A stretch of DNA of 64,000 nt, taken from NCBI RefSeq assembly GCF_025362505.1, contig NZ_JANYGG010000013.1, positions 1-64,000 of the forward strand, written 5' to 3'. This stretch comes from Sphingomonas sp. (GTDB lineage Bacteria > Pseudomonadota > Alphaproteobacteria > Sphingomonadales > Sphingomonadaceae). Positions 4,556 through 34,398 of the stretch are shown one piece after another. Within the stretch, counting starts at the first letter, position 1. Every line of letters begins with the position of its first letter. Position numbers and translations under genes: made by a program. The notes under the pieces were generated by a model, which worked only from the letters and a program-made list of their open reading frames with translations, searched no databases and had not been told where the DNA came from.

Positions 4556-5062
4556 TTAATAGTCGACCGTCACGATCAGGTTGCCGGTGTAAACGCCATC
4601 GGTCGTCGCGGGGTCGATGGCGAACGCCCCGCCGACGTTGAAATTACTGCCCGGTGCTCCCGAGTTGGTCAGCAGCACGGTGGCCGGCGCGCTCGGTGTG
4701 AACAGCAGGTTGGTCGTGCCGTTGGTGATGTTGGCGGCGGTGGTGGCGATCTTGACCGTCTGGTTGTTCGACCCGGCGACATTGAAGATCGCCTGCTTGC
4801 CGGTGGCGGAGCAGGTCAGGCCGGTGCCGCAGGTGATCGCGCCCGCCTGGCTGATCGACACCGCGGTCGAAGCGGTGACGGCGGTCAGCAGGATCGTGCC
4901 GAAATCGATGCTCTGGGTCGCAGTAAGCACGAGCGGCTTGACGATCTGCGCCCTGGCGGTGGCTGGCGTGGTCGCGCTGACCGGGGCGGCGAGCGCCGGC
5001 GTTATGGTTAGCGCAGCGGCGGTAACGACGGCGGTGGCCGCCAGGATACGAGCGAAATTCAT
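4556..5062 (-). CDS. DUF4402 pilin-like secreted protein 1
   Basis: This 168-residue protein starts with a signal peptide (MNFARILAATAVVTAAALTI, cleavage near ALA). The mature part is a DUF4402 domain: AQIVKPLVLTATQSIDFGTI near the N-terminus, a two-cysteine segment (CGTGLTCSATG), AIFNVAGSNNQTVKI, and the C-terminal GVYTGNLIVTVDY strand. Such domains occur as subunits of alternate chaperone/usher fimbriae. It is a close paralogue of the next gene upstream, with the same domain layout, a similar AGTGGGGACT ribosome-binding leader and the same terminator type. It is followed by the chaperone and usher genes. The start at 5062 is preferred over the longer ORF because the signal peptide begins there. 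Confidence 0.85.
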   Translation of the reverse strand: MNFARILAATAVVTAAALTITPALAAPVSATTPATARAQIVKPLVLTATQSIDFGTILLTAVTASTAVSISQAGAITCGTGLTCSATGKQAIFNVAGSNNQTVKIATTAANITNGTTNLLFTPSAPATVLLTNSGAPGSNFNVGGAFAIDPATTDGVYTGNLIVTVDY

Positions 5063-5204
5063 AAGATCAGTCCCCACTGGTCTCGACCCGAACCGACGGG
5101 CCGTGGTGAGGAGGCTGTTAACCAAGGCGGGTTGCGACTTTGCTCAGCGATATGGTTACCGCGCCGTTTACGAAGCCGCCGGATCGGATCAGCTTCTTGC
5201 AACG

Positions 5205-5235
5205 AAAAAGGGGCCGCCGTCGCCGGCAGCCCCCC
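5205..5235 (-). terminator. Rho-independent terminator after DUF4402 pilin gene 2
   Basis: On the minus strand, GGGGGCTGCCGG-CGA-CGGCGGCCCC runs into TTTTTC. It lies just downstream of the second DUF4402 gene. It is a near copy of the terminator at 4499..4527, so the terminator was probably duplicated together with the gene. Confidence 0.83.
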
Positions 5236-5261
5236 AAACTCATACCAACGGGTTATCGAAA

Positions 5262-5774
5262 TCAGTTATAATCGACGGTGACGTCCATGTTGCCGGAATA
5301 AACGCCGGCAGGGGTCGTCGGAGCGACGGCGATGCTGCCACCGACCGCGAAGCTCGCGGCGCCGGTTCAGCTGAGCGTCAGCGGGCTGGCCGATGCCGCG
5401 GCGGGCGTGAAGAGCAGCGTCGCCGCCCCCGGGCCAGTGATCGTGGTCGGGGCGACGTATACCTTGACGACCTGGTTGGCCGAGCCGGCGACATTGAAGT
5501 TGGCCGCGCTGGTGGTTCCGCCGCACAACAGCTGGCTGGTGCACGCGACGACGCCGGCTTCGCTGATGTTGACCGTCTGGGTTACGACCATGCCGTTGCG
5601 GATCAGCGTTCCGAAATTGAGGTCGCTGGTCTTGGTCAGCGTCAGCGGATCGACGATCTGGGCGGTGGCGGTTGCCGGAACCGCGGCCCCGACGGGCGCG
5701 GTCGCGGCATAGGCCGGCGCGGCGAACGCGGCGCTGGCGGCGAGCATGGTCAGCGTACGAGCGAATCTGGTCAT
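5262..5774 (-). pseudogene. DUF4402 pilin-like protein 2 with an in-frame TGA
   Basis: The full frame is 171 codons from ATG 5774 to TGA 5262, but codon 136 (plus-strand 5367-5369, tca) is TGA. Before it: signal peptide MTRFARTLTMLAASAAFAAP, AQIVDPLTLTKTSDLNFGTL, and CTSQLLCGGTTSAANFNVAG. After it, in the same frame: TGAASFAVGGSIAVAP and the terminal GVYSGNMDVTVDYN strand. Aligned with pilin 1, the stop replaces a glycine, so GGA to TGA is the simplest change. Loss of the last 34 residues removes the final strands, which should prevent folding or donor-strand assembly. It is either a genuine pseudogene or a sequencing error. The listed 367-residue ORF 5367..6470 joins this frame to upstream shadow sequence. 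Confidence 0.82.
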
Positions 5775-5941
5775 CTGAAGTCCCCACTTGGTTGCAAAAG
5801 CTGGCGGTTTTCCGGACCGACCGGCCAACCGTGAGGAGCGCATTAACCGTGTCGGCTTTCGCTTTTCCTCCGGGACAGGGTTACCGGCGTGTTCACGTTT
5901 GATCCGTGGTGGATGTATTTGCCCGGCAGGTCCGCGTGACG

Positions 5942-6466
5942 TCAAAGATAGTCGACGTCGACCTGGAAATCGCCGCGGAAGTCGCCGTCCACGGTCCCGG
6001 TGACGTGGAGCTCGCCGCCGAAGCGAAAGCTCAACATCCCGTTCGCCCCGATGCGGGGGAGGGTCGGAAGATCGCTGCGGATCGAATCGATGCGGACCTC
6101 GCCCCCCGAAGTTCCAAACAGGCTGATCGACTGCGGCAGGCCGATGCGCACCGCGCGCCCGGGCTCGCCACGCACCGTGACGGTCCCGGCCATCGCCCGC
6201 CCGCCGATCGACATGACCGCGCCGCTGGTCTGGTGCGATCCGTCGGGGCCGAGCGTCGCCGACCCCGCGCCAACGCCGGCGAGGACCAGCCGGTCGAAAT
6301 CGAGATTGGTCTCGACCTCGAGCTTGACGGGTATCGTGGAGTCGGTTTCGGGCGTGGCGGTCGGCGCGACGCACAACCGGCATTGGGCCGCGACCGGCTG
6401 CGCAAGCGCAAGCGCCGCAAACCCCAGCGCGACCGCTGGCAACAAGGACAAGATGCGCACCACCAT
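5942..6466 (-). CDS. DUF4402 pilin-like secreted protein 3
   Basis: This 174-residue protein has a signal peptide (MVVRILSLLPAVALGFAALA, cleavage around VAAQ). The mature part resembles DUF4402: IPVKLEVETNLDFDRLVLAG, a glycine-rich middle, and the closing GDFRGDFQVDVDYL strand. Two cysteines (CRLC) sit near the mature N-terminus rather than mid-domain as in pilins 1 and 2. It is the most divergent paralogue and the first gene of the minus-strand fimbrial cluster, transcribed away from msrB. It could be a tip or adaptor subunit, but that is a guess. The frame is intact; ATG 6466 is chosen because GAAGG lies just upstream and the signal peptide starts there. Confidence 0.75.
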   Translation of the reverse strand: MVVRILSLLPAVALGFAALALAQPVAAQCRLCVAPTATPETDSTIPVKLEVETNLDFDRLVLAGVGAGSATLGPDGSHQTSGAVMSIGGRAMAGTVTVRGEPGRAVRIGLPQSISLFGTSGGEVRIDSIRSDLPTLPRIGANGMLSFRFGGELHVTGTVDGDFRGDFQVDVDYL

Positions 6467-6549
6467 GCATCCTTCGCTAGCAAGGAGGCGTTGAAAGAGG
6501 GTTAAGCGCACCCTAACTGGATGGGCGCCTTCCAATCGCGGAGTAAAGC

Positions 6550-6990
6550 ATGGCCGACAAGATCGAACGCAGCGAAGCCGAGTGGCGCGAGCATCTCGGC
6601 GAGGAACGGTACCGGATCCTGCGCCAGGCCGGCACCGAGGCCGCCTTCTCCGGCGAGTTGCTGAACAACAAGGGCGACGGCGCCTATGTCTGCGGCGCGT
6701 GCGGCGAGCCATTGTTCGCGAGCAGGACCAAGTTCGAAAGCGGCTCGGGCTGGCCCAGCTTCACCGCTCCGGTCGCGGGCGAGGCGGTCGAGGAAATCAC
6801 CGATCGCAGCCACGGCATGACCCGCACCGAAGTGCGCTGTGCCAAATGCGAAGGCCATCTCGGGCACGTCTTCCCCGATGGCCCCGGACCGACCGGCTTG
6901 CGCTATTGCATCAACTCGGCCTCACTCGATTTCGCGCCAGGGGACGAATCCGCGAAGGGTGAACCGGCGGCCAGCGGGGAGCGGCGTTGA
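6550..6990 (+). CDS. msrB: Peptide-methionine (R)-S-oxide reductase MsrB
   Basis: This enzyme reduces methionine-R-sulfoxide in oxidised proteins back to methionine. The 146-residue frame is a single SelR/MsrB domain. It has two zinc-binding CxxC pairs (CGAC near residue 47 and CAKC near 97), the conserved SGSGWPSF segment, GHVFPDGP, and the catalytic cysteine in RYCINS near residue 119. There is no signal peptide, so a cytoplasmic location is expected. It is transcribed divergently from the fimbrial cluster, with only about 80 bp between the two starts, and precedes the PBP gene by 47 bp. Confidence 0.95.
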
Positions 6991-15378: not shown

Positions 15379-16193
15379 GCGACGAGCCTTTCGCGCAGCT
15401 CGGCGTCATGCTGGCGAGGGGCCTGCACACCGAAGAATTTCTCGAACGCCACCGCCGCCTGGCCAACCAACATCTGCAATCCGTCGATCGTTGCCAGGCC
15501 GCGTTGCCGGGCGGCGGCGAGCAGCGGCGTTTCCAGTGGCGAATAGACGATGTCGTAGACGATCGCATCAGGTCCGAGACTGTCGAGCGACACCGGCAAG
15601 TCGGGCTGGCCGGCCATCCCGAGCGAGGTGGTGTTGACCAGGAGTGCGGGGTCTATCAACGGGTCGCCGATCGCGCCGGGGCGGATCTCGAGCGGCGCTC
15701 CGATCGACAGCGCAAAGTCGGCGGCACGTTGTTGGCTGCGGCCCAATACTGTCAGATTGAATTCCGCTTCGAGCAGAGCAATCGCGATCGATCGCGCCGC
15801 GCCGCCGGTGCCCATCAGGCAGGCCGTTCGCCGGCGATCATCGTCGAACCGCCCTTCAAAAGGTTCGAGGAATCCCGCCCCGTCGCTATTGTAACCGGCC
15901 AGCACATCGCCTTCCCGGACCACCGTATTGATCGCGCTGATCTTTGCCGCCGACCGATCGATCCGGTCGATCTCGCCCCCGACGAGCCCCTTGAGCGGCA
16001 TCGTCACGTTGCAGCCCAGCCAATCGGCATCGGCACGCACCTGCGTGAAATAATCCGCGGCGGCCAGTGCCGACACCCGGCGCGAGCGATACTCGGCATC
16101 GATGCCCAGCTTCCCGAGCCAGAAATTGTGGATCAGCGGGGACTTCGACTGCGCGATCGGATCACCGATCACTTCGGCATACGGCCGCGTCAT
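15375..16193 (-). CDS. aroE: Shikimate dehydrogenase
   Basis: AroE reduces 3-dehydroshikimate with NADPH in aromatic amino acid synthesis. The 272-residue protein has the substrate-binding SKSPLIHNFWL (about residue 16), the catalytic-lysine segment CNVTMPLKGLVGGEIDRID and GYNSDGAGFLEPFE. The NADP-binding loop is MGTGGAARSIAIALLE, and a C-terminal DGLQMLVGQAAVAFEKFFG helix follows. The start is ATG 16193, which overlaps the maf stop by 4 bp; the listed ORF start is internal to maf. Confidence 0.95.
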   Translation of the reverse strand: MTRPYAEVIGDPIAQSKSPLIHNFWLGKLGIDAEYRSRRVSALAAADYFTQVRADADWLGCNVTMPLKGLVGGEIDRIDRSAAKISAINTVVREGDVLAGYNSDGAGFLEPFEGRFDDDRRRTACLMGTGGAARSIAIALLEAEFNLTVLGRSQQRAADFALSIGAPLEIRPGAIGDPLIDPALLVNTTSLGMAGQPDLPVSLDSLGPDAIVYDIVYSPLETPLLAAARQRGLATIDGLQMLVGQAAVAFEKFFGVQAPRQHDAELRERLVA

Positions 16194-16774
16194 GACGTCA
16201 TTTCGCCGCGCTCCCGAAGCGCTCCCAGCAACGGCAGCAACGGCAAGCCGAGCACCGTGAAATGGCTCCCGTCGACCGCCTCGAACAGCGTCGCACCGCG
16301 TCCTTCCATGCGAAACACCCCCACGCAGCCCGCGACTTCGGGCCACTCCGCCACCAGATAGCGGTCAATAAACGCTTCCGACAGGTCGCGCACTGTGAGG
16401 ATCGACCGTTCGGCGTGAGACCAGTCGATTTCGCCACCGCGGGCCAATGCTACCGCGCTCACCAAAGACAGCGATTTGCCCGAGAAGAACCGCAGATGCT
16501 CGGCGGCCTCGCTCCGGTCGCGCGGCTTGTCGAACCGGCGCCCGGCACATTCGGCGATCGAATCGCTGCCGATCACCCACGCTGCGGGCGCCCGTTCGCT
16601 CACCTCGACCGCCTTCGCTTGCGCCAGCCGTGCGGCAAGCGCCTCGGTCGATCCATCGAAGCCGATTTTCAGCGCCTCCTCGTCGACGGCAGGCCGCTCG
16701 GCCGCGAATTCGAGCCCGACCCCGTCGAGCAGCGACCGGCGGATTATGCTCCCCGACGCGAGGATGACCGTCAT
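16190..16774 (-). CDS. maf: Maf family nucleotide pyrophosphatase
   Basis: Maf proteins hydrolyse nucleoside triphosphates, often modified ones, to monophosphates. The 194-residue frame begins MTVILASGSIIRRSLLDGVG, the family's nucleotide-binding start, and includes WVIGSDSIAECAGRRFDKPRD with conserved acidic residues. The C-terminal part has AGCVGVFRMEGRGATLFEAV. ATG 16774 is chosen because the family begins within a few residues of ILAS. It is the first gene of the leftward maf-aroE-coaE-dnaQ operon and faces the putative origin. It is a Maf-like protein rather than clearly the dTTP- or m7GTP-specific subgroup. Confidence 0.9.
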   Translation of the reverse strand: MTVILASGSIIRRSLLDGVGLEFAAERPAVDEEALKIGFDGSTEALAARLAQAKAVEVSERAPAAWVIGSDSIAECAGRRFDKPRDRSEAAEHLRFFSGKSLSLVSAVALARGGEIDWSHAERSILTVRDLSEAFIDRYLVAEWPEVAGCVGVFRMEGRGATLFEAVDGSHFTVLGLPLLPLLGALRERGEMTS

Positions 16775-16800
16775 CGCCTTAATCGCCGGATGGACAGACC

Positions 16801-16934
16801 TGTGGAAAAACTCATGATGTTCCGTAGCCCGACAGCGGGGACGGTCCAATGGGCCAACCGCGTCCCGAACCGCTCATTCACCATTCCCATGCTCATCCAC
16901 AACCCGTGTTGGCCATGCGGGACGCTGTGAATCA
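16801..16934. promoter_or_regulatory. Cluster of DnaA-box-like sequences
   Basis: Within 134 bp there are TTTTCCACA (reverse strand at 16801), TCATCCACA (16893) and TGATTCACA (reverse strand at 16926), each one base from TTATCCACA or TTATTCACA. TCATTCACC (16874) is a weaker match. The TGAT-type boxes resemble the moderate-affinity DnaA sites described for Caulobacter. The promoters for maf and hemE should also lie in this region. Confidence 0.6.
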
Positions 16935-16949
16935 TGGGGAGGACGCGAT

Positions 16950-16976
16950 GCGACTCGCCCATTCGCGGCGAGTCGC
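16950..16976. repeat. 10-bp inverted repeat in the origin region
   Basis: GCGACTCGCC and GGCGAGTCGC are perfect inverted arms around a 7-base spacer (cattcgc). It lies between the DnaA-box cluster and the AT-rich segment. It could be a protein-binding palindrome or a hairpin in the hemE leader. Confidence 0.7.
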
Positions 16977-17087
16977 GTCTCCACCCTGCCTGTTGGCAAA
17001 TGCGGGACGCCCCACTAAACCCCGCGACCCAGCGACCATCTACACCTTCATCTCTATCTTTAAGAATCTATAAGAATAGGAAGATAA

Positions 17088-18158
17088 GTGGCGTCCTCGC
17101 CTGAACTCTCCTCACTCGTTGCCGCGGCGCCCGCCGACAAGCCGCTGCTTGCCGTCCTGCGCGGCGAACGGCGCGACCCACCGCCGTTGTGGATGATGCG
17201 CCAGGCCGGCCGCTACCTCCCCGAATATCGCGCGCTCCGGGCGACCAGAGATGGCTTCCTCGGGCTGGCCTATGATCCCGAAGCCGCCGCCGAGGTCACC
17301 CTCCAGCCGCTGCGCCGCTTTGCGTTCGACGGGGCAATCCTGTTCTCCGACATCCTCATCGTGCCCCATGCGATCGGCCAGCATCTCGAGTTCGTCGCCG
17401 GCGAAGGCCCGCGACTTTCCCCTCCGCTTGCCAATGCTTCGCTGGACGACCTCCAGCCGGTGCTGGAGCGCCTCGATCCAATCTACGGCACCGTGCGCAG
17501 GGTGAAGGCTGCTTTGTCGCCTCAGACGACATTTCTGGGGTTTGCGGGAAGCCCGTGGACCGTCGCCACCTACATGGTCGCGGGCCAAGGCAGCCGTGAA
17601 CAATCCGAGGCCCGCCGGTTTGCCTATGCCGACCCGGTCCGCTTCCAGGCGATCATCGAACGGATCGAGGAGGTCACGCTGACCTATCTCTCGGGCCAGA
17701 TCGAAGCGGGCGTCGATGCGCTCCAGCTGTTCGACAGCTGGTCGGGCAGCCTTGCGCCGGCCGAGTTCGAACGCTGGGTCATCGCTCCGACCGCGCGGCT
17801 CGTTTCCGCGCTCAAGCAGCGCTACCCGCACATCCCGATCATCGGCTTCCCCAAGGGCGCCGGTGGCAAGCTTGCCGCTTACGCGCGGCTGACCGGAGTC
17901 GACGCGATTGGCCTCGACGAGACGGTCGACCCGGTATGGGCCAACGCCGAATTGCCCGCGGGGCTGCCGATCCAGGGTAATCTCGACCCGCTCGCGCTCA
18001 TCGCCGGCGGAGAGATGCTGCGCAACGCGGTCGAGCGTATCCTCGATGCTTTTGCCGGCCGTCCGCACGTCTTCAACCTCGGACACGGCATCCAGCAGGA
18101 CACGCCGATTGATCATGTCGACCAGCTCGTCGCGCTGGTGAAGGGGACGCCTCGATGA
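17088..18158 (+). CDS. hemE: Uroporphyrinogen decarboxylase
   Basis: HemE removes four carboxyl groups from uroporphyrinogen III to give coproporphyrinogen III in heme synthesis. The 356-residue TIM-barrel enzyme shows the signature PPLWMMRQAGRYLPEYR (about residues 31-47), AILFSDILIVPHAIG, GFAGSPWTVATYMVAGQGS, and DALQLFDSWSGSL. The start is GTG 17088 with AGGAAG 6 bases upstream. Its stop overlaps the hemJ ATG by 4 bp. Its position beside the putative origin matches Caulobacter. Confidence 0.96.
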   Translation: MASSPELSSLVAAAPADKPLLAVLRGERRDPPPLWMMRQAGRYLPEYRALRATRDGFLGLAYDPEAAAEVTLQPLRRFAFDGAILFSDILIVPHAIGQHLEFVAGEGPRLSPPLANASLDDLQPVLERLDPIYGTVRRVKAALSPQTTFLGFAGSPWTVATYMVAGQGSREQSEARRFAYADPVRFQAIIERIEEVTLTYLSGQIEAGVDALQLFDSWSGSLAPAEFERWVIAPTARLVSALKQRYPHIPIIGFPKGAGGKLAAYARLTGVDAIGLDETVDPVWANAELPAGLPIQGNLDPLALIAGGEMLRNAVERILDAFAGRPHVFNLGHGIQQDTPIDHVDQLVALVKGTPR

Positions 18159-18607
18159 ACAACTGGGTTGGCTTTCTCGGTAACGCCTATCCGTGGGTCA
18201 CCGCCGCCCATGTGACCTTCGTCATCTTCTGGATGGCGGGGCTGTTCCTCCTCCCCCGTTTCTACATTTATCACCACGCCACCGCCGCCGGATCGGTCGA
18301 GGACCGCGCCTGGATCGAGCGCAACAGCCGCGTGCGGTCGATTATCCTCACTCCGGCGATGCTGATCGTGTGGGCGCTCGGGCTGCTGCTCGCGTTCCAC
18401 ATTGGCGCGTTCGGGCAGCACTGGTTCGATGCCAAGCTGCTGCTCGTGATCGGGCTGACCGGTTATCAGGGCTGGCTCGGCGCCTATGGCCGCAAGCTCG
18501 CTGCGGGCAAGCGACCGCTCGCGAACAGGACGCTGCGCATCATGAACGAGATCCCCGGCATCGCCACCGCGCTGATCGTCGTGCTGGTAATCGTAAAACC
18601 CTTCTAG
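18155..18607 (+). CDS. hemJ: Protoporphyrinogen IX oxidase HemJ (CopD-like membrane protein)
   Basis: HemJ oxidises protoporphyrinogen IX to protoporphyrin IX in many alphaproteobacteria and cyanobacteria that lack HemG/HemY. The 150-residue protein has four membrane helices. The conserved histidine and arginine residues lie in AAHVTFVIFWMAGLFLLPRF and YIYHHATA, and the family segment KLLLVIGLTGYQGWLGAYGRK is present. It is translationally coupled to hemE, which supports the heme role. Its TAG stop lies inside the first of two palindromic repeats. Confidence 0.93.
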   Translation: MNNWVGFLGNAYPWVTAAHVTFVIFWMAGLFLLPRFYIYHHATAAGSVEDRAWIERNSRVRSIILTPAMLIVWALGLLLAFHIGAFGQHWFDAKLLLVIGLTGYQGWLGAYGRKLAAGKRPLANRTLRIMNEIPGIATALIVVLVIVKPF

Positions 18608-18652
18608 GGTTTGCGACATCGAGAACGTCAAACCCTTCCAGGGTTTGCGACA
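18596..18652. repeat. Two copies of a 23-bp palindrome-containing repeat at the hemJ 3' end
   Basis: AAACCCTTCYAGGGTTTGCG followed by ACA occurs at 18596 and again at 18630, a 34-bp period. The two copies differ only at the Y (T or C). The core AAACCCT-tc-AGGGTTT is a near-perfect palindrome. The first copy contains the TAG stop of hemJ. There is no T-run, so these are not clear intrinsic terminators. Confidence 0.85.
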
Positions 18653-18803
18653 CTCCATATTGACTCGAGCAGGACCGAGACCTAACGCCCGTCGCCAGAC
18701 GGCCGCACCGGCCAGTTTCCCCCTTCGTCGGTGCGCACCCCCTTTCCGAGCGGCGTCCTGTCGCGCGACGAATTTCCCTTTCGCTCCACCATAAGAGCCA
18801 GAT

Positions 18804-20060
<1,257 letters not shown>

Positions 20061-20161
20061 ATTTTCGGTTCGCAATCGGCGCTTAACGAGGGCCGGTTTG
20101 CTGGCTTGAATATACGCAAGCGCGGCGCCATTGTGCCGCGTATGAACCGCAAGGCCGACCA

Positions 20162-20881
20162 ATGACCGATCTCCTGCTGGCCCTTCCTCTGGTCGAAGCT
20201 TCGGCAGGTCTCGGCGGACCCGGTGCGATGTGGGCGGCAATCGTCAACGACTTTTCGAATATCGGAGAACCGGCTGCCTTTGCCGTTTTCCTCCAGGTAT
20301 TGATGATCGATCTCGTCCTGGCCGCCGACAATGCGATCGTCGTCGGCGCGCTTGCCGCGGGGCTCCCGGCGGCTCAGCGCAAGAAGGTCATTCTCATCGG
20401 CGTCATTGCCGCGCTCGTCCTGCGCGTCGCTTTTGCGCTCGTGGTGACGCAGCTGATGGCGATCGTCGGTCTCGTCCTGGCCGGTGGTTTCCTTCTGCTG
20501 TGGGTGTCGTGGAAGATGTGGCGCGAACTGCACCACGGCGCCGGGGAATCGGCCGGCTCGCCAGAAATCGCTGGCGACGAGGATAGCGGCCTGCGCCCCG
20601 CGAAAAGCTTTGCTGGCGCCGTCTGGGCGGTCGCCGTCGCCGATGTGAGCATGAGTCTCGATAACGTCCTGGCGGTCGCTGGCGCAGCGCGCGAGCATCC
20701 CGGCATATTGATCGTCGGGCTGATTTTCGCGGTCGCGTTGATGGGCCTCGCCGCCAACATCATTGCAAAATATATCGAGCGATTTCGCTGGATCGGATAT
20801 ATCGGCCTCGCGGTGATCGTCTATGTCGCGGGCAAGATGATCTACCAGGGGTGGCATGAGGTCGCCCCGCTCTTTGCCTAG
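20162..20881 (+). CDS. TerC family integral membrane protein
   Basis: This 239-residue protein has about seven hydrophobic helices. TerC-family acidic membrane motifs are present: FLQVLMIDLVLAADNAIVV and AVAVADVSMSLDNVLAVAGA, each with an aspartate-asparagine pair likely to bind metal. The family includes tellurite-resistance TerC and manganese exporters such as Alx/YceF-like proteins; metal export is plausible but unproven here. Its TAG stop is immediately followed by the mnmE ATG, so the two are likely cotranscribed. Confidence 0.88.
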   Translation: MTDLLLALPLVEASAGLGGPGAMWAAIVNDFSNIGEPAAFAVFLQVLMIDLVLAADNAIVVGALAAGLPAAQRKKVILIGVIAALVLRVAFALVVTQLMAIVGLVLAGGFLLLWVSWKMWRELHHGAGESAGSPEIAGDEDSGLRPAKSFAGAVWAVAVADVSMSLDNVLAVAGAAREHPGILIVGLIFAVALMGLAANIIAKYIERFRWIGYIGLAVIVYVAGKMIYQGWHEVAPLFA

Positions 20882-22159
20882 ATGAACTTCGGGGACACCA
20901 TCGCTGCGCTGAGCAGCGGTCGCCCCCCCGCCGCCGTCGCGATCATTCGCACCAGCGGTCCCCGGGCAAACGCCGCCGCCCAGGCTCTCGCCGGCCCACT
21001 CCCTGCCCCACGCCAAGCCTCCCTGCGCACTCTTCGCCACCCGCAAACCGGCGCCGAACTCGATTCAGTCCTGCTCCTCCGGTTCGACGCCCCCCTCACC
21101 GCCACCGGCGAAGATATCGTGGAATATCAATGTCATGGCGGACGCGCGGTGGTCGCTGCCATTCTCGACGCCTTGACGTCACTTGGCCTCCGCCAAGCCG
21201 TGCCCGGCGAATTCACCCGCCGCGCGCTGGCCAATGGCCGCATCGACCTGACCGAAGCCGAGGGTCTCGCCGACCTGCTCGAGTCAGAGACCGAATCGCA
21301 GCGTCGCGCCGCGCTCGCGCTCGCCGGCGGCGCCCTCTCGCGCCAAATCGACGTCTGGCAGTTGCGCGTCGTCGACCTTTCCGCTCGCGCGGAAGCCGCG
21401 ATCGACTATGTCGGGGACGAGGACGAGACCGCGACCGATACGAGCGACCTGCGCGCCGAAGCGCTCGCCCTCGCCGCCGATCTCGACCACTGGCTCGCCC
21501 GCCCCCGCGCCGAGCGCTTGAAAGACGGCATCCGCGTCGTCGTCGCCGGCCCGCCCAACGCCGGCAAATCGAGCCTCGTCAACGCGCTCGCCGGAAGCGA
21601 CCGCGCCATCGTCACCGACGTCGCCGGGACCACGCGCGATTCGATCGAAGTCCCGCTCGCCATCGACGGCGTCCCGCTTGTCCTGATCGACACTGCGGGC
21701 TTGCGTGAGACGAACGATGCGGTCGAATCGCTCGGCATCGCGCGCGCCCGCTCCGAAGCCGCCCGCGCCGAGATCCTGCTGTGGCTGGGCAACCCGGCAA
21801 AGGCGCCCGCGCATCCCCACCTTCTCCTGATCGCTCCGAAATCTGACCTCGGCGCCCGGGGCGGCGATGGCGCGTCATCCGTGTCCGCACTCACCGGGGC
21901 GGGTATCCCGCAATTGCTTGGCAGGCTTGGGGTCGCGGCGACGTCGCTTCTCCCGGCGGAAGGCGACGTCGCGCTCAACCAGCGTCAAGCGACCGCCGTT
22001 GCGGAAGCGGCCGACCGGCTCAGAACCGTGCCAACCGACTTGCTTCTCCTCGCAGAAACGCTTCGTTCTACCCGTGTCGCCTTCGATCGATTGACCGGAC
22101 GCGCCGGGGTCGAGGACGCCATTGATGCCCTCTTCACCCGCTTCTGCCTCGGCAAATGA
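20882..22159 (+). CDS. mnmE: tRNA uridine-5-carboxymethylaminomethyl GTPase MnmE
   Basis: MnmE, with MnmG, makes the cmnm5 modification at wobble U34 of several tRNAs. The 425-residue protein has the N-terminal folate-binding domain (MNFGDTIAALSSGRPPAAVA, EYQCHGGRAVVAAIL, PGEFTRRALANGRIDLTEAE). The inserted G domain has GPPNAGKSSLVNALAGSDRA (about residue 222), DVAGTTRD and DTAGLRE. The family's terminal cysteine motif is present as FCLGK. The start codon follows the terC stop with no gap. A parS site begins at the base after its stop codon, and mnmG follows about 110 bp downstream. Confidence 0.96.
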   Translation: MNFGDTIAALSSGRPPAAVAIIRTSGPRANAAAQALAGPLPAPRQASLRTLRHPQTGAELDSVLLLRFDAPLTATGEDIVEYQCHGGRAVVAAILDALTSLGLRQAVPGEFTRRALANGRIDLTEAEGLADLLESETESQRRAALALAGGALSRQIDVWQLRVVDLSARAEAAIDYVGDEDETATDTSDLRAEALALAADLDHWLARPRAERLKDGIRVVVAGPPNAGKSSLVNALAGSDRAIVTDVAGTTRDSIEVPLAIDGVPLVLIDTAGLRETNDAVESLGIARARSEAARAEILLWLGNPAKAPAHPHLLLIAPKSDLGARGGDGASSVSALTGAGIPQLLGRLGVAATSLLPAEGDVALNQRQATAVAEAADRLRTVPTDLLLLAETLRSTRVAFDRLTGRAGVEDAIDALFTRFCLGK

Positions 22160-22175
22160 TGTTCCACGTGAAACA
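22160..22175. promoter_or_regulatory. parS centromere site 1
   Basis: TGTTCCACGTGAAACA is an exact match to the classical bacterial parS 16-mer bound by ParB. It lies in the mnmE-mnmG spacer, beginning the base after the mnmE stop. It is about 5 kb from the putative oriC and 3.4 kb from parB. Confidence 0.95.
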
Positions 22176-22222
22176 CCCCTCCCTGTAGAAGGAGGGGCGA
22201 GGGGCGACTCAGCGCAGCTGAG
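22176..22222. other. Two small hairpins between parS and mnmG
   Basis: CCCCTCC-ctgtagaa-GGAGGGG and CTCAGC-gca-GCTGAG form two consecutive stems between mnmE and mnmG. No T-run follows, so their function is unclear. Confidence 0.6.
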
Positions 22223-22270
22223 CGGGAGTGGGTTCTTGCCGCAAGCGCCACCTCCCCGTAAACGCTCCCC

Positions 22271-24076
22271 ATGTACGACGTCCTGATCCTCGGCGGCGGC
22301 CACGCCGGCTGCGAGGCTGCAGCTGCAGCTGCGCGGCGAGGCGCGCGCGTCGGACTGATCACTTTCTCGACCACGAACCTCGGCCAGCTGTCGTGCAATC
22401 CGTCGATCGGTGGCGTCGGCAAGGGCCATCTGGTGCGCGAGTTGGACGTTTTCGATGGCCTGATGGCCCGCGCCGCCGATGCTTCCACGATCCACCGCCG
22501 GATGCTCAATCGCAGCAAGGGCAGCGCCGTCCACGGCCCGCGCATCCAGGCCGACCGCCCCGCCTACCGCGCGGCGATTGCCTCGCTGATTGCCGACGCT
22601 GGAGTCACCCTGATCGAAGGCGAAGTTGCCCGACTCCGGCTGGAAGGCAGCGCGCTCATCGGAGTCCATTTGGCCAGCGGCCAGTCGATTGATTGCCGCG
22701 CCCTGGTCATCGCCACTGGCACCTTCCTCGGGGCCAAACTATTCTGCGGGCTGGACGAGAGTACCGGTGGCCGCGTCGGCGAGCGCTCCGCATTGGGTCT
22801 CGCCGACCAGATCGAGGAACTGGGACTGGCCGATGGCCGACTCAAAACCGGAACCCCGCCGCGCCTCGACGGTCGGACGATCGACTGGGCTCGCCTCCAA
22901 AGCCAGCCTTCCGAGCCGGCCAACTGGTCGATGTCCGCCTTCCCGCCCGGACGCCGCCTCCCTCAGGTCGATTGCGCGATCACCCGCACCACTCCCGAAA
23001 CGCACGCCATCATCGAGACCAATATCGACCGATCGCCGCTCTTTGCTGGCGCGATCAAAGGCCGCGGTCCACGCTATTGCCCGTCGATCGAAGACAAGGT
23101 GAAGCGCTTCGGCGATCGCGACGGCCACCAGATCTTCCTCGAGCCCGAAGGCCTCGAAACCGCCCTCGTCTACCCCAACGGCATTTCCACCTCGCTTCCA
23201 AAAGACGTGCAGCACGACTTCGTCCGCTCGATCCCGGGGCTTGAGCGCACCGAGATTGTTCAGCCCGGATACGCCGTCGAATATGCATTTCTCGACCCCC
23301 GGCGGTTAAATTCGCGCCTCGAGCACCGCGATCTTGCCGGGCTGTTCCTGGCTGGGCAGGTCAATGGCACCACCGGTTATGAAGAGGCGGCGGCGCAGGG
23401 TCTCGTCGCCGGCCTCAACGCAGCCGCCCATGCGATCGACCTTGCGCCGGTCACCTTCGATCGCGCGGCAAGCTACATTGGTGTGATGATCGACGACCTC
23501 ACGCTTCACGGCGTCACCGAGCCCTATCGGATGATGACTGCGCGCGCTGAATTCCGCCTTCACCTCCGCGCCGACAACGCCGCAACCCGTCTCGGCCAGC
23601 TGGCGATCGACGTTGGCTGTGTGGGCGATGACCGACGCAGGGCGATCGAGGAACGCCGAGTCGGTCTGGTCGGCGCCACCTGCCGCCTCGACGAACGCGC
23701 GCGCGAGTCCGAGCTGAGCGCCGAGGGCGGCCCTGTCGTGCGCTCGTTGCGCGAATGGATCGTCCGCCCCGAGTTTCGAGACGCCGCCATCGCGCGCCTG
23801 GGTGATGGCGTTGGGATCGAAGAGGTGATCGCGGATGCGCAATACGCCCCCTATTTGCAGCGGCAGAGAAGCGAATGGGTTGCGTTGCGTGAAGATCGAA
23901 ACGCCCACATCCCATCGAACTTCACGTTCAGCGCCGTCTCCGGCTTGTCTAAGGAGATGGTCGATCGCTTGTCGGTAGCCCGCCCCGAAAGCTTGGCTCA
24001 GGCTGGTCGCGTGCGGGGCATCACCCCCGCTGCATTGTCCGCGCTTCACTTCGCGCTGGTTCGCGCCGCCGTATGA
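22271..24076 (+). CDS. mnmG: tRNA uridine-5-carboxymethylaminomethyl modification enzyme MnmG (GidA)
   Basis: MnmG is the FAD-dependent partner of MnmE in wobble-uridine modification. The 601-residue protein begins MYDVLILGGGHAGCEAAAAA, the FAD-binding dinucleotide fold. It has GQLSCNPSIGGVGKGHLVRE, a GidA signature, GPRYCPSIEDKVKRF, a second signature, and LAGQVNGTTGYEEAAAQGL. The C-terminal helical domain ends in AALSALHFALVRAAV. Its stop overlaps the rsmG ATG (ATGA). The order mnmE-mnmG-rsmG-parA-parB is the classical origin-proximal cluster. Confidence 0.97.
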   Translation: MYDVLILGGGHAGCEAAAAAARRGARVGLITFSTTNLGQLSCNPSIGGVGKGHLVRELDVFDGLMARAADASTIHRRMLNRSKGSAVHGPRIQADRPAYRAAIASLIADAGVTLIEGEVARLRLEGSALIGVHLASGQSIDCRALVIATGTFLGAKLFCGLDESTGGRVGERSALGLADQIEELGLADGRLKTGTPPRLDGRTIDWARLQSQPSEPANWSMSAFPPGRRLPQVDCAITRTTPETHAIIETNIDRSPLFAGAIKGRGPRYCPSIEDKVKRFGDRDGHQIFLEPEGLETALVYPNGISTSLPKDVQHDFVRSIPGLERTEIVQPGYAVEYAFLDPRRLNSRLEHRDLAGLFLAGQVNGTTGYEEAAAQGLVAGLNAAAHAIDLAPVTFDRAASYIGVMIDDLTLHGVTEPYRMMTARAEFRLHLRADNAATRLGQLAIDVGCVGDDRRRAIEERRVGLVGATCRLDERARESELSAEGGPVVRSLREWIVRPEFRDAAIARLGDGVGIEEVIADAQYAPYLQRQRSEWVALREDRNAHIPSNFTFSAVSGLSKEMVDRLSVARPESLAQAGRVRGITPAALSALHFALVRAAV

Positions 24077-24684
24077 TTGATCGCTTGAAGCAGGTTTCGG
24101 GCCGCGATGTTCCACGTGAAACATATGAGCGGCTCGAGGCCTACGCCGCCCTGCTGGTCGAAGAATCCAGCAATCAGAACCTCATAGCCGCTTCGACCCT
24201 CGATCAGATGTGGGAGCGGCACCTCGTCGATTCGGCTCAATTGCTCCGCTATGCCCCGGCGGGCAGCTGGGTCGATATTGGATCGGGGGCTGGCCTTCCC
24301 GGTGTCGTCATCGCCATCCTCAGCGGCGATCCAGTCACGCTGGTCGAGCCCCGCCGCTTGCGCACCGAGTTCCTGACCCGCGTCAAAGTTCGTCTGGACT
24401 TGTCCAACATCACAATCATTCACGGCAAGGGAAGTGCCATGTGCGCGAAGTTCGAGAAGATCACCGCCCGCGCTGTTGCGCCCGCGACCGAACTCCTCGC
24501 CATGACGCACCATCTGTCCCGTCCCGACACCGTCTGGTTGCTCCCCAAGGGCCGAAGCGCGCAGAAGGAACTGGATGAAGTGCGGCGGTCGTGGCAGGGT
24601 GCGTTTCAGCTGGAGCCGAGCCTGACCGACCCCGATGCGTCGATCCTGCTCGCTACCGGCGTCGTGTCGAGGGGAAAGCGATGA
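24073..24684 (+). CDS. rsmG: 16S rRNA (guanine-527-N7)-methyltransferase RsmG (GidB)
   Basis: RsmG methylates G527 of 16S rRNA; its loss gives low-level streptomycin resistance in many bacteria. The 203-residue protein has the SAM-binding motif WVDIGSGAGLPGVVIAIL (about residues 73-90). It also has LVEPRRLRTEFLTRVK, a family motif, and ITARAVAPATELLAMT. The gene overlaps mnmG and parA by 4 bp each. A perfect parS site is embedded in its codons 12-17 (D-V-P-R-E-T), so both coding and centromere constraints act on this segment. Confidence 0.95.
   Translation: MIDRLKQVSGRDVPRETYERLEAYAALLVEESSNQNLIAASTLDQMWERHLVDSAQLLRYAPAGSWVDIGSGAGLPGVVIAILSGDPVTLVEPRRLRTEFLTRVKVRLDLSNITIIHGKGSAMCAKFEKITARAVAPATELLAMTHHLSRPDTVWLLPKGRSAQKELDEVRRSWQGAFQLEPSLTDPDASILLATGVVSRGKR
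24108..24123. promoter_or_regulatory. parS centromere site 2 (inside rsmG)
   Basis: A second exact TGTTCCACGTGAAACA lies inside the 5' part of rsmG, 1.95 kb from parS site 1. The palindrome is read in frame as part of DVPRET. Confidence 0.95.
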
Positions 24685-25466
24685 TCCGGATAGCAGTCGC
24701 CAACCAGAAGGGCGGGGTTGGCAAGACCACGACAGCGATCAATCTCGCCACCGCGCTCGCCGCGATCGGCTGGAAGGTGCTACTCGCCGATCTCGATCCG
24801 CAGGGCAACGCCTCGACCGGGCTCGGCATCGCCCAATCCGCCCGCGTGCGCTCAAGCTATGACGTGCTGATGGGTGAAGCGAATCTCGTCGAATCGGTCA
24901 TCCCGACCAAAGTACCTCGCCTCGACTTGCTTCCCGCGACGGTCGACCTGTCGGGCGCCGAGGTCGAACTCGTCGGACTTGAGGGCCGCACCCACCGCCT
25001 GGCGCGAGCGTTCGACGCGGCTCCCCCGGGTCGTTGGGACATCTGCCTGATGGACTGCCCGCCTTCGCTCGGGCTGCTCACCGTCAACGCGCTGGTCTCG
25101 GCGCAGCATCTCGTCGTGCCGCTCCAATGCGAGTTCTTCGCGCTGGAGGGCCTTAGTCAACTGCTGCAAACAGTGGAGCGGATCCGCGTTGCCTATAACC
25201 CGTCCCTGTCGATCCTCGGCGTCGCACTGACCATGTTCGATCGCCGTAATAATTTGAGCCAGGCCGTTGCCGAGGACGTCCGTGCCTGCCTCGGCGCGAC
25301 GGTGTTCGAGACCGTCGTGCCGCGCAACGTCCGCCTGTCCGAGGCCCCGAGCCACGGCCTGCCAGCCCTGATTTACGACCTGCGCTGCCCCGGGTCGGAA
25401 GCCTACGTCCGCCTCGCGCGGGAAATGATCCAGCGCCTCAACCTCGTCGACGCGAAGGCCGCATGA
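24681..25466 (+). CDS. parA: Chromosome partitioning ATPase ParA (Soj)
   Basis: ParA is the Walker-type ATPase that moves ParB-parS complexes during origin segregation. The 261-residue protein begins MIRIAVANQKGGVGKTTTAI, carrying the deviant Walker A with the signature lysine. DLDPQGNASTGLGI (A') and CLMDCPPSLGLLTVNAL (Walker B) follow. It lacks the N-terminal DNA-binding extension of plasmid type Ia ParAs, as expected for a chromosomal Soj type. ATG 24681 overlaps the rsmG stop; the listed ORF begins further upstream within rsmG. Its stop overlaps the ATG of a mini-ORF leading into parB. Confidence 0.97.
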   Translation: MIRIAVANQKGGVGKTTTAINLATALAAIGWKVLLADLDPQGNASTGLGIAQSARVRSSYDVLMGEANLVESVIPTKVPRLDLLPATVDLSGAEVELVGLEGRTHRLARAFDAAPPGRWDICLMDCPPSLGLLTVNALVSAQHLVVPLQCEFFALEGLSQLLQTVERIRVAYNPSLSILGVALTMFDRRNNLSQAVAEDVRACLGATVFETVVPRNVRLSEAPSHGLPALIYDLRCPGSEAYVRLAREMIQRLNLVDAKAA

Positions 25467-25531
25467 GCGGCCTGCGCCAACAAGCGTCCGGCCGCATGAG
25501 CGGTCTGCGCCAACAAGGGTCGGCCGCATGA
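25463..25531 (+). CDS. 22-codon tandem-duplicated mini-ORF bridging parA and parB
   Basis: An ATG overlapping the parA stop (ATGA) opens a 22-codon frame made of two near-identical 11-codon units, MSGLRQQASGR and MSGLRQQGSAA. It closes with a TGA that overlaps the parB ATG (ATGAG). Each repeat unit is GGCCGCATGAGCGGYCTGCG plus 12-13 further bases. The arrangement allows ribosomes to pass from parA to parB through two ATGA junctions. The peptide itself may have no function, and no Shine-Dalgarno is obvious. Confidence 0.5.
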   Translation: MSGLRQQASGRMSGLRQQGSAA

Positions 25532-26403
25532 GCAGGAGACCGGGCTTGGGTCGCGGACTCTCCGCACTGATCGGCGAGGCCACGCGTCCGCACGATGAGG
25601 ATACTACCCCGCCGGCCGGAGCGGTCCGCGAGATCGAGGTCGCGCGCATCTATCCCAACCCCAACCAGCCGCGGACCCGGTTCGATGAGGCAGCGATCGA
25701 CGAGCTAGCCGACTCGATTCGAGAGCGCGGCGTCATTTCCCCGATCCTGGTCCGCGAGATTGACGGCGGCTACCAGCTTGTCGCCGGCGAACGCAGGTGG
25801 CGCGCGGCGCAGAAGGTGCAGCTCCATCTGATCCCGGCGCTGGTCAAGACGCTCGATGATGCGTCATCGGCCGAGATCGCGCTGATCGAGAATATCCAGC
25901 GCGAGGATCTCAATGCGATCGAAGAGGCCGAGGGTTACCGCAAGCTGATCGATCGTCACGGTCATACCCAGGAGCAGCTCGGCAAGCTCGTCGCCAAGTC
26001 GCGCAGCCACATCGCCAACCTGCTGCGCTTGCTGGACCTCCCCGCCGACGTGCGCGAGATGCTGGTGATGGGTGAAATCAGCATGGGCCACGCACGAGCC
26101 ATCATCGGTGCGCCAGATCCATCTGGAATCGCTCGAGAAATTGTCAAAGGCGGGCTTACAGTCCGCCAGGCCGAGGACCGTGCACGCGCCGCCAAGCCAG
26201 CGGGTACGCGCAGCACGTCGTCCTCGGGCAAGCCGCGCGCGGTCGATGCCGACCTCGCCGCGCTCGAACGCCAGCTCGGCGATCTGCTCGGGCTCAAGGT
26301 CAAGGTCGCGCATTCGGGCGCCGGCGGCACAGTAAGCCTGTCTTATTCGAGTCTCGACCAGCTCGACATGATCTGCCAGCGCCTCTCCGGCGAACCGATC
26401 TAG
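25528..26403 (+). CDS. parB: Chromosome partitioning protein ParB (Spo0J)
   Basis: ParB binds parS, spreads as a CTP-dependent sliding clamp and recruits segregation factors. The 291-residue protein begins with the ParA-activating basic peptide RRPGLGRGLSALIGE. The CTP-binding/N-terminal domain follows with IYPNPNQPRTRFD and GERRWRAAQKV (about residue 87), then EIALIENIQREDLNAIEEAE. The helix-turn-helix is TQEQLGKLVAKSRSHIANLLRLL, and the C-terminal dimerisation domain ends LSYSSLDQLDMICQRL. Two cognate parS sites lie upstream. The TAG stop begins a short remnant (TAGAGCCTGA) of the dispersed palindromic repeat. Confidence 0.97.
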   Translation: MSRRPGLGRGLSALIGEATRPHDEDTTPPAGAVREIEVARIYPNPNQPRTRFDEAAIDELADSIRERGVISPILVREIDGGYQLVAGERRWRAAQKVQLHLIPALVKTLDDASSAEIALIENIQREDLNAIEEAEGYRKLIDRHGHTQEQLGKLVAKSRSHIANLLRLLDLPADVREMLVMGEISMGHARAIIGAPDPSGIAREIVKGGLTVRQAEDRARAAKPAGTRSTSSSGKPRAVDADLAALERQLGDLLGLKVKVAHSGAGGTVSLSYSSLDQLDMICQRLSGEPI

Positions 26404-26416
26404 AGCCTGAAGCCTG

Positions 26417-27430
26417 CTAGCGACGCGCCGCGCGGGCGATTGCGAGCAGCTCTTGCCCCAGCGCAGCATCGCCCGGCACCGGCGACAGCATCAGCCGTCG
26501 TTCGAGCGCGCTCACCCGCTTCGCCAGCTGCGCCAGGCGCGCCGCGCTCCACTGCGACAATAGCCGCTGCATCAGCGCTTTATCTTTCCAGAACAGAGCT
26601 TTGCCCATTGACGTCATGACAGCATCGAGCCGTTCACCGCTCTCGATGCGCGCGCGCAGCGGGGCCAGCTGGAGCACCCTGCGCTGCAGCGACCGGACGA
26701 TCGGCACGACCTCCGATCCGCCCGGCGTCAGGCGCTGAAGCTCGTCGGCGAGCGCGCCGAGTTGGCCATCGAGAGCGAGATCGCCGATCCGCAGCGCATC
26801 GCCCTCGCCGGTATCGGCGCCGAGTTTGTCGATCGTCTCCTGGTCCAGTTCGCGCGGAGTTTCGGGGCTGGCCCCGAGATAAAGCGCGAACTTCGCCAAT
26901 TCCGACGCAATCACCGCCGAATTGTTGGCCGCCTGCCCGGCAACCCGCGTCGCGACGCCGTTGGAAATGCGCAGCCCTTCCGCCCGGCCGAGATCGGTTA
27001 TCAGCCGCTCGGCGTCGCGTCCCTCGAGCGGATAGGACACGTGCGACAGCGCACCGCCGTGCGTCTCGGCTAGCTTGAGCAGTCCCGACGTCTTTTTGAG
27101 CGCGCCAGCGAGCGCGATGACCGGACTTTCGATCGCTGCGGCCCCGAGCAGCGCCTCGACGCCGGCGACGATCTCGTCCTCCGCCGGCTCGACCCAGATC
27201 GCGCGGCGGTCGCCGAACAGCCCCATCGCGCCTGCCTCGTCGGCGAGCAATGCGGGATCGCTTTTGACCGCTCCGCCAGCGACCACGAATTTCTCCGCTC
27301 CGAGCCCCTTGAGCAAGCGATCGGCGAGCACCCGTGAGCCGGCTTCATCGGCCCCGTGGAACAGGTAAAAACGGAGCGCCGCGTCGGGCTGGTCGAGCGA
27401 CCGGCCAAGCGTCGCCTTGTTGGCCTTCAT
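26417..27430 (-). CDS. holA: DNA polymerase III delta subunit
   Basis: Delta opens the beta clamp as part of the clamp loader. The 337-residue protein begins MKANKATLGRSLDQPDAALR and continues YLFHGADEAGSRVLADRLL, typical of alphaproteobacterial HolA. It has GLFGDRRAIWVEPAEDEIVA, HVSYPLEGRDAERLITDL, and a C-terminal helical collar with LLSQWSAARLAQLAKRVSAL. It converges with parB and follows lptE and leuS on the minus strand, a common order in this lineage. ATG 27430 is the first good start, 25 bp after the lptE stop. Confidence 0.92.
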   Translation of the reverse strand: MKANKATLGRSLDQPDAALRFYLFHGADEAGSRVLADRLLKGLGAEKFVVAGGAVKSDPALLADEAGAMGLFGDRRAIWVEPAEDEIVAGVEALLGAAAIESPVIALAGALKKTSGLLKLAETHGGALSHVSYPLEGRDAERLITDLGRAEGLRISNGVATRVAGQAANNSAVIASELAKFALYLGASPETPRELDQETIDKLGADTGEGDALRIGDLALDGQLGALADELQRLTPGGSEVVPIVRSLQRRVLQLAPLRARIESGERLDAVMTSMGKALFWKDKALMQRLLSQWSAARLAQLAKRVSALERRLMLSPVPGDAALGQELLAIARAARR

Positions 27431-27455
27431 CGCCGCCGCGCGGAGGACGCCCGGC

Positions 27456-27950
27456 TCATCGCCGTCCCGCTGTCGCGGTCATGTAGCGCGCCAGACGGGC
27501 GACAATCTGATCGGCGACCAGCGCGCTCAGTCGCTCGGTCGCGGTCTGCTCGGCCGCGATCGTGGCATATTCGGAGCTGACGACGTCGATCCCGGCGTCC
27601 GACCCCGCGGTCGCGTCGAGCACCACGGCACCGCTGGCTCGCTCGACCAGCCGATAGCGTGCGCGCAGGGTCCGACGTTCGCGCGTGGTCGCGCTGTCAC
27701 CGCGAATGCCGAAGCCGGTGATGCTATCGTTGAGTTCGACCTCGAGCCGGTACAGCCCCGCCGGATGCTCGCCGCCCAACCGATCGACCAGCGCGTTGCG
27801 CGTCAGCCATCCACTACGTTGCGGGATCGGGCCGACCTCGATCGAGCGAAAACCAATCGCCGCCGCGCCGCGCGAGCCGCCGTCGTAGAGCGGGTGGAGG
27901 CCACAGCCCGTCACCGCCAACGCCGCAATCAGGGGCAGGAGTTTGCGCAT
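27456..27950 (-). CDS. lptE: LPS-assembly lipoprotein LptE
   Basis: LptE is the outer-membrane lipoprotein that plugs and stabilises the LptD lipopolysaccharide translocon. The 164-residue protein has a lipoprotein signal (RKLLPLIAALAVTGC, cysteine 16), then GLHPLYDGGSRG, a pattern common to alphaproteobacterial LptE. A beta-alpha fold with RLEVELNDSITGFGIRGDSA follows. The start overlaps the leuS stop by one base (TGATG). The leuS-lptE-holA order supports the call; LptD is not in the window. Confidence 0.9.
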   Translation of the reverse strand: MRKLLPLIAALAVTGCGLHPLYDGGSRGAAAIGFRSIEVGPIPQRSGWLTRNALVDRLGGEHPAGLYRLEVELNDSITGFGIRGDSATTRERRTLRARYRLVERASGAVVLDATAGSDAGIDVVSSEYATIAAEQTATERLSALVADQIVARLARYMTATAGRR

Positions 27951-30469
27951 CAGGCGACGATATTGACCAGCCGGTCGGGGACTACAATCACCTTTCGCGG
28001 TGCAGCTCCATCCAGCTGCCGGACGACCTTGTCGCAGGCCAGCGCGAGCGCCTCGATCGCGCCGCGATCGAGCCCGCGCGCGACCGTGATCGTGTCACGC
28101 AGCTTGCCGTTGACCTGCACCGCGATGGTGACCTCGTCGTCGATCAGCATTGCCGGGTCGAAGCTCGGCCAAGCGGCGTTGGCGACCATTCCCGATTCGC
28201 CAAGCCGCGCCCAGGTTTCCTCGGCGAGATGCGGGGCCATCGGGGCAATCAGGCGGACCAGCGTGCGAATCGCGGCCTCCCGGCTCGCCGACGGCGCTGC
28301 TTTCTCTACCGCGCCGGCCAGCTCGTAGAGCGCGGCAACCGCCTTGTTGAACGCCAGTCCGTCGATCGCCGCTCCGACCGCGGCCGTCGCGCGGTGCGCG
28401 CGCTTGTCGATCGCCAGCTCCTCACCGGCAGCTCCGGCGACGCTGCCGACCAGTCGCCATACGCGCTGGACGAACCGCGCCGCGCCCTCGATGCTCGCTT
28501 CGGACCATTCGAGGTCGCGCTCGGGCGGCGAGTCCGACAGCATGAACCACCGCACCGCGTCGGCGCCATAGCGGTCGACAATCGGCTCGGGATCGACCGT
28601 ATTCTTCTTCGACTTCGACATCTTCTCGATCCGGCCACGGACCACTCCGCTACCGGTCGCGCGCTCAATCACTGAAGCACTGGTGCCATATTCGATCTCG
28701 TCGGGCGAAAGCCAGCGACCGTCGAGCGACTTGTAGGTCTCGTGGGTCACCATCCCTTGCGTGAACAGCCCCTTGAACGGCTCGGCGAACCCGATCCGGC
28801 CGATATGCTGCAACGCCCGCGTCCAGAAGCGCGCGTAGAGCAGGTGAAGGATCGCATGCTCGACCCCGCCGATATATTGCGCGACCGGAAGCCATTGCTC
28901 GGCCTCGGCGCGGTCGAACGGCTGGTCGTCCGGCTGGCTGGCGAAGCGGATGAAATACCACGAGGAATTGACGAACGTGTCGAGTGTGTCGGTCTCCCGC
29001 CGGGCTTCCGCGCCGCATTTCGGACAGGTCGCCGCACGCCATGTCGGGTGGCGGTCGAGGGGGTTACCCGGCACGTCGAACGTCACGTCCTCGGGCAGGA
29101 TGATCGGCAGTTGCTCGCGCGGCACGCCGACCGGGCCGCACGATCCACAATGGATCACCGGGATCGGCGTTCCCCAATATCGTTGCCGCGACACGCCCCA
29201 GTCGCGCAGGCGATACTGGACCGTCCCCTCGCCCCAGCCGCCAGCCTCGGCGCGGCGGATCACTTCCATCGTTGCCTCTTCGGTCGACAGGCCATCGAGG
29301 AAGCGCGAATGGACCGTAACGCCATACCCGGTTTCGGCCTCGTCTACCGCCGCATCGGGATCGCCGCCCTGGGGAATGACCACGCGTCGGATTGGCAGGT
29401 CATATTTGGTCGCGAACTCGAAATCGCGCGCGTCGTGCGCAGGGACGCCGAACAGCGCGCCGGTGCCATAATCCATCAACACGAAATTCGCGATCCAAAC
29501 CGGCAGGCGGATGTCGGGGTCGAACGGGTGAACCGTCTCGAGCCCGGTGTCGTAACCGCGTTTTTCGGCGGTTTCGATCTCGGCGGCGGTCGTCCCGCCG
29601 GTGCGGCACCTGTCGATGAACGCTTGCGCGGCACCGTCCCGCTCGGCCACGGCGAGCGCCAGCGGATGCCCCGCCGAGATCGCGACAAAGCTTGCCCCGA
29701 AAATCGTGTTCGGCCGCGTCGTGAACACCTCGACCCGGTCGATTCCTACTTCCGGTGCGGCCAGGACGAACGCAAATTTCAGCCCCTGGCTCCGACCGAT
29801 CCAGTTCTCCTGCATCAGCCGGACCTTGTCGGGCCACTGGTCGAGCGTTCCCAGCCCGTCGAGCAGATCCTCCGCGAAATCGGTGATCTTCAGGAACCAC
29901 TGCGACAGCTTGCGTCGCTCGACCAGCGCGCCCGATCGCCAGCCGCGCCCGTCGATCACCTGCTCATTGGCAAGCACGGTCGCGTCGACCGGGTCCCAAT
30001 TGACCTCGCTCTCCTTGCGATACACGAGGCCGGCATCGAGCAGGTCGAGGAACAGCGCCTGCTCATGACCGTAATAATCGGGCTCGCAGGTCGCCAGCTC
30101 GCGGCTCCAGTCGAGCGCGAACCCCAGCCGTTTCAACTGCACGCGCATCGTCGCGATGTTGGCGCGCGTCCACGTCCCCGGGTGAACCCCCTGCTCCATC
30201 GCTGCATTTTCGGCGGGCATGCCGAACGCGTCCCAACCCATCGGGTGAAGCACTTCGAAGCCCTGCATCCGCCGGTAACGCGCGAGCACGTCGCCCATCG
30301 TGTAATTGCGGACATGGCCCATATGGATGCGTCCCGACGGATAGGGGAACATCTCAAGGACGAAGGTCTTGGGCTTGGGCGAAGCCGAATCGGCCGTGAA
30401 GGTGCCCGCCTCGGCCCAGCGCGCCTGCCAGCGCGCATCGGCCGACGCGGGCTCGAAGCGATCGGTCAT
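27950..30469 (-). CDS. leuS: Leucyl-tRNA synthetase
   Basis: LeuS charges tRNA-Leu with leucine. The 839-residue class I synthetase has the HIGH-type motif [19 protein letters not shown] (about residue 45), a CP1 editing domain ([16 protein letters not shown]), and the KMSKS loop ([14 protein letters not shown], about residue 613). The anticodon-binding domain and a C-terminal extension follow, ending with [11 protein letters not shown]. There is a zinc-ribbon-like CPKCGAEA insertion. Length is typical. It lies between a DUF3576 lipoprotein and lptE on the same strand. Confidence 0.97.
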
Positions 30470-30481
30470 CCTCGGTGTCGC

Positions 30482-30913
30482 TTAACCGCGGACGGCGGAG
30501 CGGCGCAGATCGCGGGCACGGGTCAGGATGATGTCTTCCAGCTTCTGCACGGTCGCCGCGGCGACCGGCACGTCGACCCACGCGCCATTCCGGTTGACCT
30601 GGCGCGCCGCGGCGACGCGCAGCGCATCGGCGCGCAGATCCTGGTCGAGGATCGAAGCGGTGATCTTGACCCGCTCCCCGGGGGTCGCCGGAGTCGTATA
30701 CCAGTCGGTGACGATCACCCCGCCGTTCGAATCGGCCTGGGTCAGCGGCGCGAACGACAGCGTGTCGATCGCCGCGCGCCACAGATAGGCGTTGACCCCG
30801 ATCGTCGTCATCCGCGACGGAGCGAGCGTGGTGGGCAGGCGCCGGTCGCGCGCGCAACCGCCGAGCGCGAGCCCGGTGAGCAGGAGGATGGTGAGCGGGG
30901 TCGAACGGCGCAT
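30482..30913 (-). CDS. DUF3576 lipoprotein
   Basis: This 143-residue protein has a lipoprotein signal peptide (STPLTILLLTGLALGGCARD, cysteine 20) and a DUF3576 domain: TIGVNAYLWRAAIDTLSFAPL, SNGGVIVTDWYTTPATPGER and KITASILDQDLRADALRV. The family is conserved in alphaproteobacteria next to leuS-lptE-holA. It is therefore a candidate envelope or LPS-related factor, but its function is not established. It lies 12 bp upstream of leuS on the same strand and probably leads the operon. Confidence 0.9.
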   Translation of the reverse strand: MRRSTPLTILLLTGLALGGCARDRRLPTTLAPSRMTTIGVNAYLWRAAIDTLSFAPLTQADSNGGVIVTDWYTTPATPGERVKITASILDQDLRADALRVAAARQVNRNGAWVDVPVAAATVQKLEDIILTRARDLRRSAVRG

Positions 30914-31103: not shown

Positions 31104-31123
31104 AGGAAGTTGGAGGAACAGTC

Positions 31124-31855: not shown

Positions 31856-31876
31856 TCGTCCGTCGCGCCTGATCCC

Positions 31877-34388: not shown

Positions 34389-34398
34389 CGGCCTCGCT

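Follow-up and report, generated by a model that had tools for sequence, protein, structure and literature searches.

The maf-hemE spacer and its neighbours

The window, by which we mean the whole 64-kb stretch of DNA that was analysed, contains an intergenic spacer between maf and hemE that is a candidate oriC (Table 1). The two genes diverge from the spacer, and the order dnaQ-coaE-aroE-maf is followed, across the spacer, by hemE. Both the divergence and the Caulobacter-like gene order had been pointed out in the original prediction, in which this spacer was put forward as the likely oriC, and both are borne out. The spacer therefore has the position upstream of hemE, and the maf-aroE-coaE-dnaQ neighbourhood, of a hemE-side oriC. 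Two exact parS sites, TGTTCCACGTGAAACA, are present ahead of parA and parB, where 0.05 would be expected by chance; these sites and parAB are within about 9 kb of the spacer, in agreement with the proximity first noted for them. Elsewhere in the window, at 4556-6712, a group of short minus-strand ORFs that look secreted lies next to an msrB-like gene at 6550. By eye, these ORFs have a likeness to pilus proteins of the spore-coat-U/DUF4402 type.

Table 1. Features of the maf-hemE spacer and its surroundings (positions in the window)
Feature	Position	Strand	Remarks
maf	16190..16774	-	PF02545
oriC candidate, maf-hemE intergenic spacer	16775..17087	.	313 bp
DnaA box 1, TTTTCCACA	16801..16809	-	exact TTWTNCACA; position conserved across family
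DnaA box 2, TCATCCACA	16893..16901	+	1 mismatch
DnaA box 3 (weak), TGATTCACA	16926..16934	-	kept as CTGTGAATCA in genus
GANTC (CcrM-type methylation site)	16929..16933	.	within box 3
W-box-like TCCCCA	16935..16940	-	adjoins box 3; Caulobacter weak DnaA site consensus
Inverted repeat	16947..16979	.	arms 16947-16959 and 16967-16979
GANTC	16952..16956	.	within conserved GCGACTCGC
GANTC	16970..16974	.	
-35 element TTGGCA, predicted hemE promoter	16993..16998	+	17-bp spacing in 31/31 congeners
-10 element TAAACC, predicted hemE promoter	17016..17021	+	
AT-rich block, candidate duplex-unwinding element	17047..17086	.	75% AT
GANTC	17064..17068	.	within AT-rich block
hemE	17088..18158	+	PF01208; GTG start; ribosome-binding site AGGAAG 17078-17083
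parS, TGTTCCACGTGAAACA	22160..22175	+	exact match
parS, TGTTCCACGTGAAACA	24108..24123	+	exact match
parA	24681..25466	+	PF13614/PF01656
parB	25528..26403	+	PF02195/PF17762

Sites within the spacer

Box 1 is the sole match to TTWTNCACA in the window. Measured against this consensus, the spacer has one exact site and two with one mismatch, and against TTATCCACA it has two sites with one mismatch and one with two. Of the three one-mismatch boxes that had been described before, two are therefore upheld against TTATCCACA and the third is not. Three box-like sites at one mismatch or fewer from TTWTNCACA were not reached in any of 1000 shuffles of the spacer, and at least three such sites are found in 2 of 406 window tiles, a count in which tiles may overlap the spacer itself. 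The presence of only a single consensus DnaA box in the spacer was counted against an origin.

GANTC sites are enriched in the spacer, as is characteristic of a Caulobacter-type Cori. There are four in the 313 bp, rather than the two originally reported, versus 2.3 per kb in the window, and at least four are found in 0.6% of windows of 313 bp. The Cori of Caulobacter crescentus has GANTC sites and a hemE promoter inside it, as does the spacer here, its promoter being a predicted one. The inverted repeat that had been recognized is present (13 nt, 92%), is GC-rich, and has a left arm that is better conserved than the right in the alignment of relatives. The AT-rich block likewise lies before hemE as described, and it is the most AT-rich 40-mer of the window. 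The AT peak adjoins hemE in most relatives, consistent with a putative role in unwinding. Interpretation of this block as a series of DnaA-trios was set aside, its sequence being poorly conserved.

Conservation in relatives

The region containing hemE and its upstream sequence was aligned for 58 relatives, 30 of them congeners and 28 from elsewhere in the family. In the genus, the hemE start is preceded at 242-296 bp by the box TGTGGAWAA (TTWTCCACA on the minus strand); box 1 is exact in 25 of the 31 genus loci and has one mismatch in the remainder. Also conserved in the alignment are ATCCACAG, CTGTGAATCA, GCGACTCGC, CTGTTGGCAAA, and TAAACCCCG. Overall, the DnaA boxes that are retained in the relatives comprise one consensus box and two weaker ones.

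Apart from the boxes, conservation is strongest in the block TTGGCA-N17-TAAACC, in which most of the bases in between vary and just downstream of which the AT-rich block sits. The spacing is 17 bp in 21 of the 28 other family members and 18 bp in 3. Among the 44 named records in which a -35 was recognisable, it is 17 bp in 37. Two of the records with a sphingomonad-like hemE locus, L232 and L255, are titled Bacillus sp. 2B10 and Microvirga sp. SRT01 and may be mislabelled or contaminated. The simplest reading of the block is a predicted σ70-type promoter inside the origin and facing hemE. We had considered CTGTTGGCAAA (16990-17000) as an unknown origin-specific element, but this was dropped in favour of the promoter because the distance from CTGTTGGCAAA to TAAACCCCG, that is from TTGGCA to TAAACC, is fixed in 31 of 31 congeners. 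In 28 further alphaproteobacterial genomes, one per family, the corresponding position had no close match to CTGTTGGCAAA, and CTGTTGGCAAA was not recognisable in 35 of 79 named records, including Erythrobacter- and Novosphingobium-like genomes. A literature search for CTGTTGGCAAA together with oriC returned nothing relevant.

Is the spacer, then, only a regulatory region of hemE (and maf), made up of conserved promoter elements, with replication starting elsewhere? The hemE-facing pair is among its best conserved parts, as this would predict, yet a promoter leaves the conserved DnaA boxes and the AT peak unexplained.

The maf side of the locus differs within the family. In every one of the 31 loci from the genus, about 298-344 bp separate the start of maf from the hemE match. 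This distance is about 1100-1250 bp in the remainder of the family, for which maf was located in 26 loci. The genus lacks a gene that separates maf from the origin elsewhere in the family. This gene is apparently ppsR: the intervening ORF in one family locus (L006) was judged by eye to be ppsR-like, and PF03618 (ppsR) has no match anywhere in this genome. Without this maf-side gene, the origin in the genus still keeps its length and sites.

Chromosome-scale evidence

The source genome is a 138-contig assembly, and chromosome-wide skew was instead read in two single-contig congeners, G171 and G145. Skew and KOPS were sampled at 20 places per congener with a step of 110-130 kb, which localises the origin to about 100 kb. 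The cumulative GC-skew minimum, suggested with the original prediction as a check, falls in both congeners in the interval that includes the hemE spacer, with the maximum opposite. The polarity of KOPS (GGGNAGGG) flips in the same interval in both, the arms of G171 having 34:7 and 6:24. The distance from dnaA to hemE is about 0.95 Mb in G171 and about 0.83 Mb in G145, and coordinates also show the two genes far apart in the ten remaining single-contig congeners. Restriction of the spacer to hemE regulation is also at odds with the skew minimum and KOPS flip at the spacer in congeners, with dnaA being elsewhere, and with the parS sites beside the spacer; we consider it very unlikely.

A single DnaA C-terminal-domain hit is present in each of 12 congeners, versus three separate DnaA-domain hits in this assembly (L001, L002, and L003, on contigs C32, C2, and C61), two of which are of near-equal full strength. 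Together with 5.89% contamination, the three hits point to a mixed bin.

Within the window, the GC skew over the 20 kb to the right of hemE (16951-36950) is -0.056, opposite to the expectation for an origin. It is also negative (-0.075) to the right of hemE in the nearest relative, G123; most other congeners are not reversed. The reversed local skew was set aside as evidence against an origin and its sign is treated as weak evidence, because contigs of this assembly swing as widely at that scale (+0.09 to -0.19 over 10-20 kb). Contig skew and KOPS polarity in this assembly had no significant link (rho 0.44, p 0.13).

Could the origin be nearby and outside the spacer, for example near parS or in a different intergenic region no more than about 100 kb away? 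The sampling step would accommodate this, as would the window's local skew, which is not centred on the spacer. However, the only TTWTNCACA box of the window and its AT maximum are both in the spacer, with family-wide conservation, and we consider a displaced origin very unlikely as well. It is the boxes, the AT-rich block, and their conservation that single out the spacer itself, for which the sampling step alone would be insufficient.

The spacer as a probable replication origin

On sequence evidence, the maf-hemE spacer is very probably the origin of chromosome replication in a bacterium of the Sphingomonadaceae, as originally predicted. This is supported because the boxes and AT-rich block are kept in 58 relatives, because the GC-skew minimum and the KOPS flip are observed at the spacer interval in two single-contig congeners, because dnaA is distant in the congeners checked, because parS and parAB adjoin the spacer, and because the locus has already been predicted as an origin in Sphingomonadaceae and mapped as one in Hyphomonas, of the same class. 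The hemE-side spacer is the standard origin site for Sphingomonadaceae, and the find is sound but ordinary. It places a likely origin for a genus of small-genome sphingomonads, with a multi-species alignment of its parts.

From these parts we infer DnaA binding, unwinding, promoter activity, and methylation. Nucleating on box 1, DnaA would extend to boxes 2 and 3 and the W-box-like site beside box 3, and would then melt the AT-rich block that immediately precedes hemE. The helicase would be loaded at this block, from which two forks would depart, one through hemE and one through maf. The predicted hemE promoter (16993-17021) would read through the AT-rich block and may help opening. The hemE promoter of Caulobacter, a strong promoter inside the origin that is needed for its replication, has been described as helping origin opening. 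Methylation of the GANTC sites by CcrM may serve as a mark of origins that have been replicated, and the new copies would be segregated by ParB bound at the parS sites, which are 5 and 7 kb from the spacer. The find also suggests an origin in sphingomonads of which the hemE promoter is an integral and conserved component. A more speculative proposal, of which we are doubtful, is that this origin is built around the fixed hemE promoter, with transcription through the unwinding block being part of initiation and control being by CcrM, not CtrA.

Comparison with known origins

Like the Cori of Caulobacter crescentus, the spacer flanks hemE and has weak DnaA sites, including a W-box-like TCCCCA. 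The W-box TCCCCA, the G-box TGATCCACA, and the CtrA consensus have been described for Caulobacter (PMC4285127). Unlike Cori, the spacer has no TTAA-N7-TTAA CtrA site with fewer than two mismatches, the nearest having two, and its strongest box is TTTTCCACA rather than the G-box TGATCCACA.

In Hyphomonas neptunium, the coverage maximum in marker-frequency analysis is near hemE, and parAB, which has two parS sites upstream, lies at about 7 kb from that gene (PMC6650430). The hemE-side location and the close parAB and two parS sites are alike here; that origin was mapped by experiment, whereas this one is predicted from sequence.

A hemE-side origin is predicted in DoriC for most Sphingomonadaceae, and Sphingopyxis genomes have conserved putative DnaA boxes and a putative unwinding element in the hemE-side intergenic region (PMC4741004). 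The hemE-side location, conserved gene cluster, several boxes, and putative unwinding element are shared with that origin; the difference is that here maf and the origin have no gene between them. To the picture of the hemE-side origin given there, the predicted TTGGCA-N17-TAAACC promoter pair pointed out here is an addition, and the absence of the maf-side gene from the genus, with the origin intact, is a second.
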